DNA of 36,526 nt, taken from the NCBI GenBank assembly GCA_002779825.1, contig PEVN01000373.1, forward strand, positions 1-36,526, in the 5' to 3' direction. The stretch is from Armatimonadetes bacterium CG06_land_8_20_14_3_00_66_21 (GTDB taxonomy: Bacteria; Armatimonadota; Abditibacteriia; CG2-30-66-41). Made by a program: the position numbers and the translations under genes. The notes beneath the pieces are model-generated. The model ran no database searches. It worked only from the letters and a program-made list of their open reading frames with translations, and was not told the DNA's origin. Below are positions 30,234-36,526 of the stretch, in pieces (within the stretch, counting starts at the first letter, position 1; the number at the start of each line of letters is the position of its first letter).

Positions 30234-30275
30234 GGAAAGGCTGGAAGGATGGAAGGCACGGAAGGCATGGAAGGG
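30234..30275 (+). repeat. Purine-rich tandem GGAAGG repeats before the four-helix-bundle gene
   Basis: Five GGAAGG-like units (GGAAAGG, then four GGAAGG) with an 8-9 base period start directly after the stop of the secreted protein gene and run into the start of the four-helix-bundle gene. One unit serves as its ribosome site. The complementary pyrimidine array follows the gene at 30724-30794. Confidence 0.7.
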
Positions 30276-30722
30276 GCGCAGCGAGCTCGCGTGGCGAGCC
30301 CTCGGCGCAATGTCAACCGAGGGTACCGGACGCTTGCCGTTTGGCAGGACGCAATCGACTACTACGCAATCACCTGCCGGATCTTCAGAGCGTTCCCGGA
30401 CGAGTTGAGGCGCGTGGTCTCGAACCAGAGCTCCGCCGTGGACTCCGTTCACAGGAACATTGCCGAGGGATACTGTCGTCGCCGCCTCAACGAGTACCTT
30501 CAGCACCTCAACGACGCAATGGGCTCGGCTGGGGAGTCGGTGTCCGGCCTTCACGCCTGCCGCAACGCCGGTCAGGTCTCCGAGACGGAGGTCGCGCAGG
30601 CTGATGCCCGTGTCTTCAAGCTCGAGAACCGCCTGAAGCGCTTGATCGCGAGCCTCCAGTCGAAACGTCAAGAAGGCGATTGGGAGGACTCATTCGTTGC
30701 GCCCGATCCAGATTCCGGCTAA
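30249..30722 (+). CDS. Four-helix-bundle protein (23S rRNA intervening-sequence/bAvd-like family)
   Basis: A 157-residue protein with a core of about 115 residues in the S23/IVS-protein family: YRTLAVWQDAIDYYAITCRIFRAFP, then NQSSAVDSVHRNIAEGYCRR, YLQHLNDAMGSAGESVSGLHACR and a C-terminal helix ending RLIASLQSK. The L.VWQ.A+.....IY...+.FP and S.. SI..NIAEG motifs are the family signature. Members are encoded inside 23S rRNA intervening sequences, as stand-alone genes and as Avd accessory proteins of diversity-generating retroelements; no reverse transcriptase or rRNA is present here. The start ATG 30249 lies in a GGAAGG repeat; downstream ATG 30267 or GTG 30291 are possible. Short complementary repeats flank the gene. 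Confidence 0.8.
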   Translation: MEGTEGMEGAQRARVASPRRNVNRGYRTLAVWQDAIDYYAITCRIFRAFPDELRRVVSNQSSAVDSVHRNIAEGYCRRRLNEYLQHLNDAMGSAGESVSGLHACRNAGQVSETEVAQADARVFKLENRLKRLIASLQSKRQEGDWEDSFVAPDPDSG

Positions 30723-32007: not shown

Positions 32008-35000
32008 CTACGCGCGAGGGCGGAACAGGCACAGGCGCAGCGCGTGCCAGAGGGGCAACAGCGAACTGAGTGTGATTGCGCCCAGCACGAGTTCGGGGCC
32101 GAAGTGGACGGGGGTGTAGAGCGGCACAACACCCACAGCAACTGGGAGGGCGAGCGCGTGGCAGAGGAACGCCCACACCGTGCTCTGGCGGACGGCCCGC
32201 GTGGTGCGGCGGGCCAGTTGGATCACCTCGGGCACCTTCAGCGGGTCGGCTGCAAGGAGGAGGATGTCGGCCGCTTCCCCGGTGAGGTCCTCGCCGCCGG
32301 CCATGGCGATCCCCACCTCGGCCTGGGCCAGTGCCGGCGCATCGTTGAAGCCGTCACCCACCACAGCCACCAGCTCACCTTCTGCTTGCAGCCGCCGGGT
32401 CTCGTCGGTCTTGCGGCCGGGCATCGCCTCGGCGAGGACGCGACTCAGACCCAGCTTCTCGCCCAAGTGCTCTGCGACGACCCAACTGTCGCCGGTGACC
32501 ATCGCCGTCTTGATCCCCAACCGATGGAGCTTCTCCACGGCTGCCTGGGCGGTGGGCTTCAGCGGATCGGCGACGGCGATGATTGCCGCCAGTTCCGCCT
32601 CAACCCGCACCGTCAGGATGGCCTTGCCTTCCTGGGCGAACCGTTGCGCCGCTCGCTGTAGCGCCGTGTCTTCCAGTAACTCGCCCCGGCTCCAGTCCCA
32701 CCGCGAAACTTCCACTCGGCGACCGTTCACCAGAGCGGAAACCTGGAGTCGCGAGGTGGCGACAGTGTCCTCCGGTGTGGCAATGGGGAGTTCGTCTCGA
32801 TTTGCCGTGCGGAGGATCGCCCGGGTTAGTGGATGATCCGTGTATCGCACCGCCGAGGCCGCCAGGCTCAACACGGCATTGCGGAGGCGCCCTCTGGCGG
32901 GGGTGATCTCCACGACCTCGGGGTAGCCGAGGGTGAGGGTTCCAGTCTTGTCGAGCAGCACCTCCGTCAGCCCGGCACTCAGTTCGACGGTCTCAGGCGA
33001 CTTGAAGAGGAAGCCCAACTTCTTCGCTCGCAGCACGGCGGCAGCCACGATCAGCGGTTCGGCGAACCCCAACGCGCACGGGCACCCGACGATGAGCACG
33101 GCCACTCCGTACAGCAGCGCGGGGGACAAGTTGGGCTTGGGACCGTACACAAGCCAGAGCAACGACGTGCCCGCTGCGAGGACCAACACCCCAGGAACCG
33201 CGTATCCTCCAACAGCCTCGGAGGTAGGCAGGAACGGCAACTGGGTGCCCCGGGTCCGCATGAACTGCCGGACGATCCGCGACCTGACCGTATCGCCGCG
33301 CACCCGCGCGACCTCAACCAGCAGGCGCGCTCCCCGGTTGACCGAGCCGCTCACCACCTCCGCTCCCGGCGACTTGTCGGCGAGCATGCTCTCCCCCGTG
33401 ACCGTGGATTCGTCGACGACCGACTCACCCGACACAACGTGGCCGTCCACAGCGATCCGGTCGCCCGGTTGCACCACGACCAGGTCGCCGACCTCGATGG
33501 AGTGACCCGGAACCACCACCTCCTCGTCCTCCACCACCTTCGTCACGTAGCGCTCGCCGCCGTGAATCCGTTGCCGAACGGAGGTGTCGCTTCCTTGCCG
33601 CGAGACTTCCGTCTGCAGCCGCCCGAACAGTACCAACGCAACCATCAGCGCAGCAACGCAGAAGTAGCCCTGCGGGTCTTCGACCCCCCGCATGAGCGGC
33701 GCCTGCAAAGTCCCGGCGGCCCCATCCAGGAGAGCGGCGAAGGCGCAGAGGCCGACGTACACGCCGAAGCTGAGCCGCGATCGGAGCAGCGACCGGAGGG
33801 CCTCCCGGTAGAGCGACCCGCCGGCCCAGAAGACCACGGCAGCGGCAAGCAGCCCTTTCGCATAGTCCAACTGCTGCGAGGGGAGTGAAGGCAGCGGCTT
33901 GTCCCGCTCCAAGAGCGTTGCGCCGAAGAGCGCGATTGCGCCGACGCAGGCCCACCGCGCCCGGACTCGCCAATGGGACACGCCGAGCTTGGCGCGGCCC
34001 GGCTCTCCGGCGTCGGGATCCGAGCGGACGCGGAGACCCTCCTGCGACAACACCCACTGAAGCTCGGCGATCACCGAGGAGGAATCCCACACGCGAAGCT
34101 TCGCCACTCGGTCTTCGTCGATGGAAGCCTCAACGACCCCTGGTACCTGCTGTAGCGTCGCCTCCAGCACGACCCAGTCGTCCACATCCCCTTCCAGTTG
34201 GAGGGTCCGCTCAGAGACGGGGACCTCGTGGCCGACAGCTTCGACGGCTTGGATCAGTCGCTGAGTACTGGCCCTCTGGACCTGGAGACGAATGGTTGCG
34301 CCCTTGGAGTCCAGACTCACGTCCGTCTCGGTGACACCATCGACCTGCGCCAAGGCGCTCCGCACAACCTCGGCGGAGCGACCGGACGCCATGTTGCTCA
34401 CCGGCACAAACAGGGAGACCGGCTTGCCCTCGACGTCGGCCTTGGAGGTCTGCCGGCTGAAATGCTCACTGAGCAGGGGGAGAAGCTGGCGCGGGGCAAG
34501 CTTCGCCTCCAGGGCAGCTCGATCCTTTGCCGAAGACTGCTGTAGTTCCTCCCGGAGCTGCCGTTCCGTGTCCAGCAGGCCGGTCAGGCGGCGGGTACTC
34601 AGGTGCAGCGCCGTTAAATTGACCACCGCCGCCACGAAGTCCAAGTCCTCACCGCCCGCCGCCTCCACGGCAGTGTGTGTCACCAGCAAGATGAGCCCGT
34701 GGACGGAGTTCGCGTCGACAAGGGGAGCGCACAAGAGAGCGCGTATCGGCGGCCTCGTCGGCTCTCCCGGTTCGGGGAGACGGCTCTCCTCCCCCGCGAA
34801 CTCGCCCCAAACGGCCTCTCGATGCTTGATTGCCCTCTCCACCAAGGAGCGATTGGTCTCGAGCAGGTGCGCTTCGGGAACGGCGGACGCGCCGTGGCAG
34901 GTGACGGCCGCCACGAGTTTCCCGGTGGCGTCGTCGCGGAGCAGGATGCTTCCCTGCTCTGTCTCCAGGCCAGTGCCGGTGAACAGGACATCCATGGCCC

Positions 35001-35229
35001 AGTTGAGCAACTGGTCGGTGCCCAAGTCAGTCGTGCTTGGGGCTGTCAGCGAACGGAGGGCCGCCAGTCGTTCGGGAGACCAGCTCTTGGCGGGTGTTGG
35101 GTCTTGCACTGCCTCTCTGAATGCGTGAGGCGCTTCCTCCCACGGCGGGTGCGCTCTCTCCGGCAGGCCGCTCTCGCCGGCGGCGAGAGCGGTGTCCTCT
35201 GACTGGGGAGTTGGCGTGGCTACGTCCAT
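32008..35229 (-). CDS. P1B-type heavy-metal ATPase with N-terminal GAF domain and two cysteine-less HMA domains
   Basis: A 1073-residue protein. Residues about 60-215 form a GAF domain (QGSILLRDDATGKLVAAVTCHG, RALLCAPLVDANSVHGLILLV). A coiled-coil-like segment (216-260) leads to two HMA folds (271-336, 341-402) that keep the VGV/AL and GH/EGL pattern but have no CxxC. The ATPase core follows: TGES (611-614), CPC (716-718), DKTGT (760-764), the HP loop (799-800) and GDGFNDAPAL. Cu+ ATPases use YN and MxxSS in the last two membrane helices; here CH and ITLSS stand there, so the metal is uncertain. It probably exports a transition metal, with GAF as a putative ligand or redox sensor. No strong ribosome site precedes ATG 35229. 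Confidence 0.88.
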   Translation of the reverse strand: MDVATPTPQSEDTALAAGESGLPERAHPPWEEAPHAFREAVQDPTPAKSWSPERLAALRSLTAPSTTDLGTDQLLNWAMDVLFTGTGLETEQGSILLRDDATGKLVAAVTCHGASAVPEAHLLETNRSLVERAIKHREAVWGEFAGEESRLPEPGEPTRPPIRALLCAPLVDANSVHGLILLVTHTAVEAAGGEDLDFVAAVVNLTALHLSTRRLTGLLDTERQLREELQQSSAKDRAALEAKLAPRQLLPLLSEHFSRQTSKADVEGKPVSLFVPVSNMASGRSAEVVRSALAQVDGVTETDVSLDSKGATIRLQVQRASTQRLIQAVEAVGHEVPVSERTLQLEGDVDDWVVLEATLQQVPGVVEASIDEDRVAKLRVWDSSSVIAELQWVLSQEGLRVRSDPDAGEPGRAKLGVSHWRVRARWACVGAIALFGATLLERDKPLPSLPSQQLDYAKGLLAAAVVFWAGGSLYREALRSLLRSRLSFGVYVGLCAFAALLDGAAGTLQAPLMRGVEDPQGYFCVAALMVALVLFGRLQTEVSRQGSDTSVRQRIHGGERYVTKVVEDEEVVVPGHSIEVGDLVVVQPGDRIAVDGHVVSGESVVDESTVTGESMLADKSPGAEVVSGSVNRGARLLVEVARVRGDTVRSRIVRQFMRTRGTQLPFLPTSEAVGGYAVPGVLVLAAGTSLLWLVYGPKPNLSPALLYGVAVLIVGCPCALGFAEPLIVAAAVLRAKKLGFLFKSPETVELSAGLTEVLLDKTGTLTLGYPEVVEITPARGRLRNAVLSLAASAVRYTDHPLTRAILRTANRDELPIATPEDTVATSRLQVSALVNGRRVEVSRWDWSRGELLEDTALQRAAQRFAQEGKAILTVRVEAELAAIIAVADPLKPTAQAAVEKLHRLGIKTAMVTGDSWVVAEHLGEKLGLSRVLAEAMPGRKTDETRRLQAEGELVAVVGDGFNDAPALAQAEVGIAMAGGEDLTGEAADILLLAADPLKVPEVIQLARRTTRAVRQSTVWAFLCHALALPVAVGVVPLYTPVHFGPELVLGAITLSSLLPLWHALRLCLFRPRA

Positions 35230-35394: not shown

Positions 35395-36526
35395 TCATCG
35401 GCGCGTGGCGCCCGCCGGCCGGCGTCGGCGCCAACCCCACAGCACGCCACCACCAAGAAGAAGGGGCCCGCCCAGACCGAGAGCGACCTGCCCCCAGGCC
35501 GAGAACAACAGGATCTTGTGGATCAGCGCGTTGTGCGCTCTGGGGTTCTTGGGCAGTTGACCCAGGTGCTCAGCCACATGGTGGAGCAGGCTGACGGCGG
35601 GGGAGCGCTCGGGAATCTCCTTGTGGCAGCCAAGGCAGACCCCGCGCCGGTCGGTGCGGTGGCGCTCCACGTTGTTCAGCGGACGCGACAGCCTGAAGTG
35701 GTGGCCGACCGTCTGGAGCTGCTTGCCGTCTTCTGTCACGATCCGCGACCAGTCGTGGCTGAGTCCCTCAATGGGCTCGCACTGGACCTGGGCTTTCTTG
35801 GCGAGCACCGTCCCGTCCACCGTCTCCAGATCCACATAGAGCGGCTTGTCTGGCGGGCGCGTCGCTTCGCCGCCCGAGATACCGTAGCCCAACGCCTTGT
35901 CGGACGCGTGGCACGACTCGCAGGGGCGGGCCCCATCCATCATCGTGTGCGGCTGGTTGGGGCTCATGTCGATGCACAGTTGCCCCTTGGCGCCGCCGCC
36001 CTCAGTGTTCGGAGGAGCACGGAATATGTGATTGAGCAGAAGGGGCTTTCCGTCGGGCCCGATGACCGTGATGGAAGGCTGGCAACCTGGCGCCAGCGGG
36101 GTGATCCGCCCCTCGCCGTTCACGCCCATCATCGGGTCTTCCCAACGAGTGTATGAGCGGTCCTCTTCCAGCGCGCCGGGGATGGCAACGGCGTATTGGC
36201 CTTCGCTCGGGTCGGCAGCGTGCCCGGGCTGAGCGTGGCGGTGTCCGGCGGCGAGCCAGTCGAAGCGGGTCTTGCCTCTCGAGTAATCCACCTTCACATG
36301 GCAGCCATAGCACTGCGGCGACCACGAGGCGTGGCACGTGTAGCACTCCATCCTGCTCCTGTGCAGACGGACATTGTCCATGGCCACGCGACCGGCAAGC
36401 TCGAACCCGTTCTCCTGCTTGATCAGCTTCAGCGGCTTAATACTACAACCGTACTTAGCGCGAATGTGCTCGGCGAGGGTCTCCTGACCCCGCCGCTCCC
36501 CGGACCGACAGGTCTCCAGAGCCCTT
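35395..36526 (-). CDS. Multihaem cytochrome c with C-terminal membrane anchor, 5' partial
   Basis: The reverse frame is open to the window edge, so the start and any signal peptide lie outside; 377 codons are visible. Four CxxCH haem sites appear: CYTCH and CYGCH close together, then CESCH about 130 residues on and CLGCH later. Extra His residues (HAQPGH, GHH, LLHHVAEH) could be axial ligands. The C-terminus has one membrane helix (LFSAWGQVALGLGGPLLLGGGVLWGW) and a positive RRRRPAGATRR tail, so the haem domain is likely extracytoplasmic. It probably carries electrons in a respiratory or extracellular chain. Class is unclear: the window lacks partner oxidoreductase genes. It ends 165 bases before the ATPase gene. 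Confidence 0.85.
   Translation of the reverse strand, partial: RALETCRSGERRGQETLAEHIRAKYGCSIKPLKLIKQENGFELAGRVAMDNVRLHRSRMECYTCHASWSPQCYGCHVKVDYSRGKTRFDWLAAGHRHAQPGHAADPSEGQYAVAIPGALEEDRSYTRWEDPMMGVNGEGRITPLAPGCQPSITVIGPDGKPLLLNHIFRAPPNTEGGGAKGQLCIDMSPNQPHTMMDGARPCESCHASDKALGYGISGGEATRPPDKPLYVDLETVDGTVLAKKAQVQCEPIEGLSHDWSRIVTEDGKQLQTVGHHFRLSRPLNNVERHRTDRRGVCLGCHKEIPERSPAVSLLHHVAEHLGQLPKNPRAHNALIHKILLFSAWGQVALGLGGPLLLGGGVLWGWRRRRPAGATRR

Follow-up and report, generated by a model that had tools for sequence, protein, structure and literature searches.

A GAF domain joined to a divergent P1B-type ATPase in an Armatimonadetes bacterium

It is still argued whether metal pumps use their N-terminal HMA domains for metal delivery or as a brake. 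The locus described here raises a related question: what could control a P1B-type ATPase that has lost the metal sites of both HMA folds and carries a signalling domain in front of them? The window, meaning the whole stretch of 36,526 nucleotides that was analysed, is a single contig (C439; PEVN01000373.1) of a metagenome bin assigned to Armatimonadetes bacterium CG06_land_8_20_14_3_00_66_21.

Architecture and source of the GAF domain

A sequence-only reading of this DNA had proposed that a GAF domain, a linker and two HMA folds are fused to a P1B-ATPase. Pfam, AlphaFold and Foldseek agree on this fusion, in which a GAF domain is followed by a helical linker, two ferredoxin-like HMA folds and the P1B pump (Table 1), with HMA2 lacking sequence-profile support. 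Whole-protein Pfam searches recognize E1-E2_ATPase (E value 7.5e-40), Hydrolase (1.1e-29) and, as HMA1, the HMA family at residues 275–334 (8.6e-8; score 32.9 against a cut-off of 24.8), while GAF_2 at residues 92–210 (3.9e-6) scores 27.5, just below its cut-off of 28.6. When the GAF segment is searched alone, GAF_3 (31.4 against 27), GAF_2 (31.1 against 28.6) and GAF (24.6 against 22.4) all pass.

Because alignments mixing GAF and P1B fragments put the GAF rows in the wrong place, structure prediction was run on two halves that overlap, residues 1–430 and 255–1073. The first half has GAF topology at about residues 52–231, and Foldseek matches it to GAF-containing structures such as 4g3k_A (TM 0.75 by target). 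Successive ferredoxin-like folds are modelled at about residues 271–346 and 338–402. The second half (pLDDT 86, pTM 0.81) shows eight transmembrane (TM) helices and the A, P and N domains after the HMA folds, and it matches LpCopA and ATP7B, with LpCopA (4bbj) as the top match (TM 0.87 by target). The GAF fold that had been placed at residues 60–215 is thus recovered by Pfam on the segment, AlphaFold and Foldseek, and the HMA folds placed at 271–402 appear as two ferredoxin-like folds in the AlphaFold model, where Pfam supports HMA1 only. The Pfam E values and the homologous sets of GAF and P1B sequences exclude a chance architecture.

Table 1 Features of the fused ATPase gene and of its upstream neighbour, in window coordinates
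Feature	Residues	Coordinates	Strand	Basis and remarks
GAF-HMA-HMA-P1B ATPase gene	1073 aa	32008..35229	-	ATG start; stop codon included
GAF domain	about 52-215	34600..35076 (= 52-210)	-	Pfam segment search, cyclase homology, AlphaFold, Foldseek, PDB profile matches
Helical linker	about 211-262	34444..34599	-	AlphaFold; long helix 193-231, then two more helices
HMA1	271-338	34216..34419	-	Pfam, alignment, AlphaFold; CxxC replaced by Ser282/Ser285
HMA2-like ferredoxin fold	339-402	34024..34215	-	Alignment, AlphaFold; without CxxC (EGDVDDWVV)
TM helices MA, MB (Gly470-Gly471 kink), M1, M2	412-556	33562..33996	-	Alignment, AlphaFold
Actuator domain, TGES at 611-614	561-655	33265..33549	-	Pfam, alignment, AlphaFold
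CPC motif (M4)	716-718	33076..33084	-	Alignment
DKTGT phosphorylation motif	760-764	32938..32952	-	Alignment
N-domain nucleotide site	794-843	32701..32850	-	Alignment; His799 kept
GDGFNDAP	958-965	32335..32358	-	Alignment
Cys1023-His1024 (M5), replacing Tyr-Asn	1023-1024	32158..32163	-	Alignment; common to paralogue fragment
Multihaem c-type cytochrome, four CxxCH		35395..36525	-	Weakly ExtM-like; cut by contig end

The host assembly is of metagenome type (8.29 Mb, 578 contigs, 93% complete, 6.6% contamination), and an error of assembly or binning might have fused two separate genes, one for a GAF protein and one for an ATPase. Such an origin would fit the derivation from a single bin in so many contigs, the many dispersed repeats and a paralogue that is broken at a contig end. 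However, the fusion lies in one unbroken frame of 1110 codons, GC3 is even across the junction (0.77–0.85) and the linker helix is continuous from the GAF domain towards HMA1, and we regard an artefact as very improbable. The GAF–P1B architecture is real and unusual; confidence in the fusion is limited because a single gene from a single metagenome bin shows it.

The best relative of residues 46–231 in the same genome is an FHA-GAF-class III cyclase on contig C352 (38% identity, pairwise E value 8e-26). Identity extends into the start of the linker, where ERQLREELQ in the ATPase corresponds to ETQLREQLQ in the cyclase. The match of the GAF query continues into the cyclase domain (residues 232–299), but this part crosses a 30-residue gap and was discarded as an overrun. 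An FHA-GAF-class III cyclase gene (L058:4680-6293) lies immediately after what reads as a Ser/Thr protein kinase gene. In a set of 291 genomes from the phylum, this one included, the same GAF type is found mostly in frames of about 450–640 residues, and those that were read encode FHA-GAF- or GAF-histidine kinases. The cyclase and the FHA-GAF-histidine kinases resemble the ATPase in the GAF domain and the beginning of the linker, but they carry an FHA domain and a cyclase or kinase output, whereas the ATPase lacks FHA and has a P1B ATPase as its output. By sequence, this FHA-GAF-cyclase/kinase family is the likely kind of source for the GAF domain, and the simplest history would be capture of a GAF domain with its linker by a P1B gene.

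GAF domains that bind cyclic nucleotides are marked by an NKFDE motif, which is not evident by eye in the GAF domain of the ATPase. Cys167 of this domain is conserved throughout the aligned GAF set and is therefore not a special redox switch.

Neither a GAF–P1B fusion nor an orthologue of this one was found in the 290 other genomes of the phylum, where every GAF match lies outside P1B ATPase frames. A single-protein scan of species-genome contigs gave no relatives. The DNA pattern for the TM5 Cys-His site (W-A-F-x-C-H), a single strict pattern that would miss variants, has five matches in 84,980 species genomes, none in a P1B ATPase, and none in viral contigs. By tblastn, at least 5000 plasmid records match the protein, and GAF is present in none among the matches listed.

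HMA folds without CxxC and a changed pump core

The absence of CxxC from both HMA folds, as claimed from the sequence, holds in the alignment. Cysteine occupies both HMA1 positions in all 25 relatives that have the column, and the replacement by Ser282 and Ser285 is unique to the fused ATPase within this set. In HMA2, which Pfam does not recognize, GMxCxxC is replaced by EGDVDDWVV. Three CopA relatives (L022, L034 and L045) keep the first HMA intact while their second HMA also lacks CxxC, so this second loss is not special and is older or recurrent.

The core motifs TGES, CPC, DKTGT, HP and GDGFNDAP are intact, as had been reported, and the alignment adds TGD to them. What the earlier reading missed is a strong divergence of the pump core, the N-domain and the metal path. 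Among 196 positions that are at least 90% conserved in 31 P1B relatives, 80 (41%) are changed in the fused ATPase; the relatives change 0–14. In LpCopA, Met148, Glu205 and Asp337 form the Met-Glu-Asp entry site for Cu(I) (PMC7558416), and their equivalents here are Phe488, Thr540 and Glu671. The CPC cysteines are kept (Cys382 and Cys384 of LpCopA, here Cys716 and Cys718). Glu189 of LpCopA, which we take to be the exit residue, is replaced by Cys524. Among the other TM residues, presumed copper ligands, Tyr688-Asn689 is replaced by Cys1023-His1024 and Met717 (M6) by Ile1052, with Ser721 kept as Ser1056, such that three of the six transmembrane ligands are lost.

The nucleotide site is altered as well. 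We take Glu457, His462, Gly490 and Gly492 of AfCopA to be the Glu, His and GxG of the P1B nucleotide site. Only the histidine is retained (His799); Glu457 has become Val794, Gly490 Arg827 and Gly492 Gln829, and the next glycine is Ser842. With the equivalents of Glu457, Gly490 and Gly492 lost, turnover may be low. Because most Cu(I)-path residues outside CPC and three nucleotide-site residues have changed, both cargo and turnover are uncertain, and the description of the protein as a metal pump, for which the kept CPC speaks, is less secure than had been supposed.

Class, paralogue and genomic context

The fused ATPase has the features of the P1B superfamily: TGES, DKTGT, HP, GDGxNDxP, CPx in M4 and eight TM helices. 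It passes the general heavy-metal model TIGR01525 (420 against a cut-off of 346) and falls short of the NCBIfam copper model TIGR01511 (347 against 397) and the cadmium model TIGR01512 (284 against 313). P1B-2 Zn/Cd ATPases have Lys in M5 and Asp in M6, and neither is present in the sequence. With P1B-1 Cu(I)-ATPases (LpCopA, AfCopA and CopA2/CcoI/FixI) it has in common eight TM helices, the GG kink, the A, P and N domains, CPC in M4, the catalytic motifs and N-terminal HMA folds. In contrast to them, it has gained a GAF domain, lost both CxxC motifs and diverged at 41% of near-invariant positions, with changes in the entry triad, the exit Glu, the M5 Tyr-Asn pair, the M6 Met and the nucleotide-site Glu and GxG.

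In the tree, the Cu-type clade includes the fused ATPase (support 97/94), whose branch, at 2.74, is the longest and makes this placement unsure. Its position there and the Cu pumps among its best structure matches would suit a drifted Cu(I) exporter or cuproenzyme-loading pump, in a CopA1 or CopA2/FixI role, on which the GAF domain is an add-on for dimerisation or anchoring. The genome also encodes two haem-copper oxidases, canonical copper ligands (Tyr-Asn, MxxSS) were seen in none of its other readable P1B pumps, and a cytochrome gene adjoins the ATPase. However, no COX genes adjoin it, the TIGR01511 score lies below the cut-off, the branch is long, and the equivalents of Met148, Glu205, Glu189, Tyr688, Asn689 and Met717 have all changed, which leaves a drifted copper pump of this kind unlikely.

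The cytochrome gene lies upstream on the same strand, separated by 165 bp. The only homologue among the remaining 290 genomes of the phylum (G257) has no P1B gene nearby, which leaves an obligate partnership with the ATPase unsupported. A dispersed repeat of about 80–100 bp at window positions 36421–36520 recurs at some 40 further places in the genome, most copies being 94–100% identical and many lying at contig ends; at four places an inverted part of 25–31 bp is found within about 100 bp, giving the repeat the appearance of a hairpin or MITE-type element. The cytochrome frame owes its opening 30-odd codons to the repeat, and the true start of this frame is probably the GTG at 36387. Downstream of the ATPase, on the opposite strand, Pfam identifies a URO-D family gene, and a 23S_rRNA_IVP family protein unrelated to the ATPase is encoded at 30249–30722 on the forward strand.

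The genome holds other variant P1B-like ATPases. One carries a Band_7/SPFH domain at its C-terminus, in frame with the ATPase (L084:453-3851 on C166), and another has CPG in place of CPC (L089 on C269). In a third (L060:5687-7549 on C438), which has a weak HMA_2 match, DYSCG replaces CPC; the match spans two frames, indicating a gene that is broken or misread.

A partial paralogue on contig C187, visible for its C-terminal part only because its N-terminus lies beyond the contig end, is 55% identical to the fused ATPase over the last 320 residues. Both have the derived Cys-His pair, Phe961, His921, Pro1059 and other such residues, and the paralogue retains the nucleotide-site Glu and one Gly. 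Contig C569 (L006) was considered as its missing N-terminal half and rejected. A profile built from the pair and run on the 291 genomes gives 659 and 640 bits for its two members and 290 bits for the next best sequences. Between the two, dN (0.40) is far below dS (about 2.0, which is close to saturation), for a dN/dS near 0.2; this purifying selection indicates that the C-terminal third is maintained and points to a function for it.

These data also bear on whether the protein transports at all. It might be a sensor that evolved from a pump and transports little or nothing, in which P-domain phosphorylation is retained, the ATPase conformations serve signalling or scaffolding and the GAF domain provides the input; the degenerate HMA folds, metal path and nucleotide site would then reflect lost pumping. 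The many changes at near-invariant positions, the branch length and the loss of the Cu entry triad and of the Glu457 and GxG equivalents are consistent with this idea. Nevertheless, TGES, CPC, DKTGT, TGD, GDGxNDAP and HP are all kept, purifying selection acts between the paralogues, and the paralogue still has two of the nucleotide-site residues, so we judge such a sensor to be improbable.

A possible GAF-controlled ATPase

We favour, with a probability of roughly 0.5, a CopA-derived ATPase of the P1B-1 clade that has acquired a GAF and helical-linker input and works under GAF control, its cargo being uncertain. The sequence and model data show the architecture, the homology of its parts, the CxxC loss, the kept catalytic motifs, the altered metal path and the purifying selection on the C-terminal third. 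As we envisage it, the GAF domain, which is probably dimeric, would bind a small cytosolic ligand or report redox state, and the helical linker would relay the change to two HMA folds that are unable to bind copper through CxxC. Docked on the A and N domains, these folds may serve as a metal-blind brake, so that turnover would be switched by the GAF signal and no longer by copper. The pump would cycle by way of Asp760 phosphorylation, moving a soft metal, which is not safely Cu(I), through the changed CPC and Cys-His site.

Direct ligand or redox control, as the sequence-only reading had suggested, is plausible, the GAF domain and the first part of the linker having come from a family of signalling proteins. 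Its proposal that the HMA domains are regulatory modules agrees with published work: the N-terminal domains of Cu-ATPases are proposed autoinhibitory sensors that hold the core back when copper is scarce (PMC11970713), and Thermotoga maritima CopA with its CXXC mutated is still phosphorylated, with turnover nearly abolished (PMC4179477). In that mutant, too, a Cu-type pump is preceded by an HMA fold whose metal-binding cysteines are missing, but the mutant is laboratory-made and nearly without turnover, whereas the fused ATPase is natural and has a second HMA fold and a GAF input. With both CxxC motifs gone, copper cannot lift a brake through them. Signalling helices link GAF domains with catalytic ones (PMC1592074), which would make the GAF domain and its helical linker the obvious replacement as input. 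A further step, in which a copper-sensing N-terminus has turned into a metal-blind relay driven by the captured GAF domain and the CPC and Cys-His of M4 and M5 define a new cargo class, is offered tentatively and is doubtful.

What is new is the GAF–P1B fusion as a variant of the P1B ATPase. A recent review, which holds that prokaryotic P1B pumps lack regulatory terminal domains, raises the question of when these arose (PMC10654040). In the open-access papers searched, we found no report of a P1B ATPase that receives a small-molecule or redox input, and if the proposed control is true, this would be, to our knowledge, the first. A signal other than copper may switch the pump, and a natural pump in which both HMA metal sites are lost and a signalling domain stands in front offers a direct test of the brake model.
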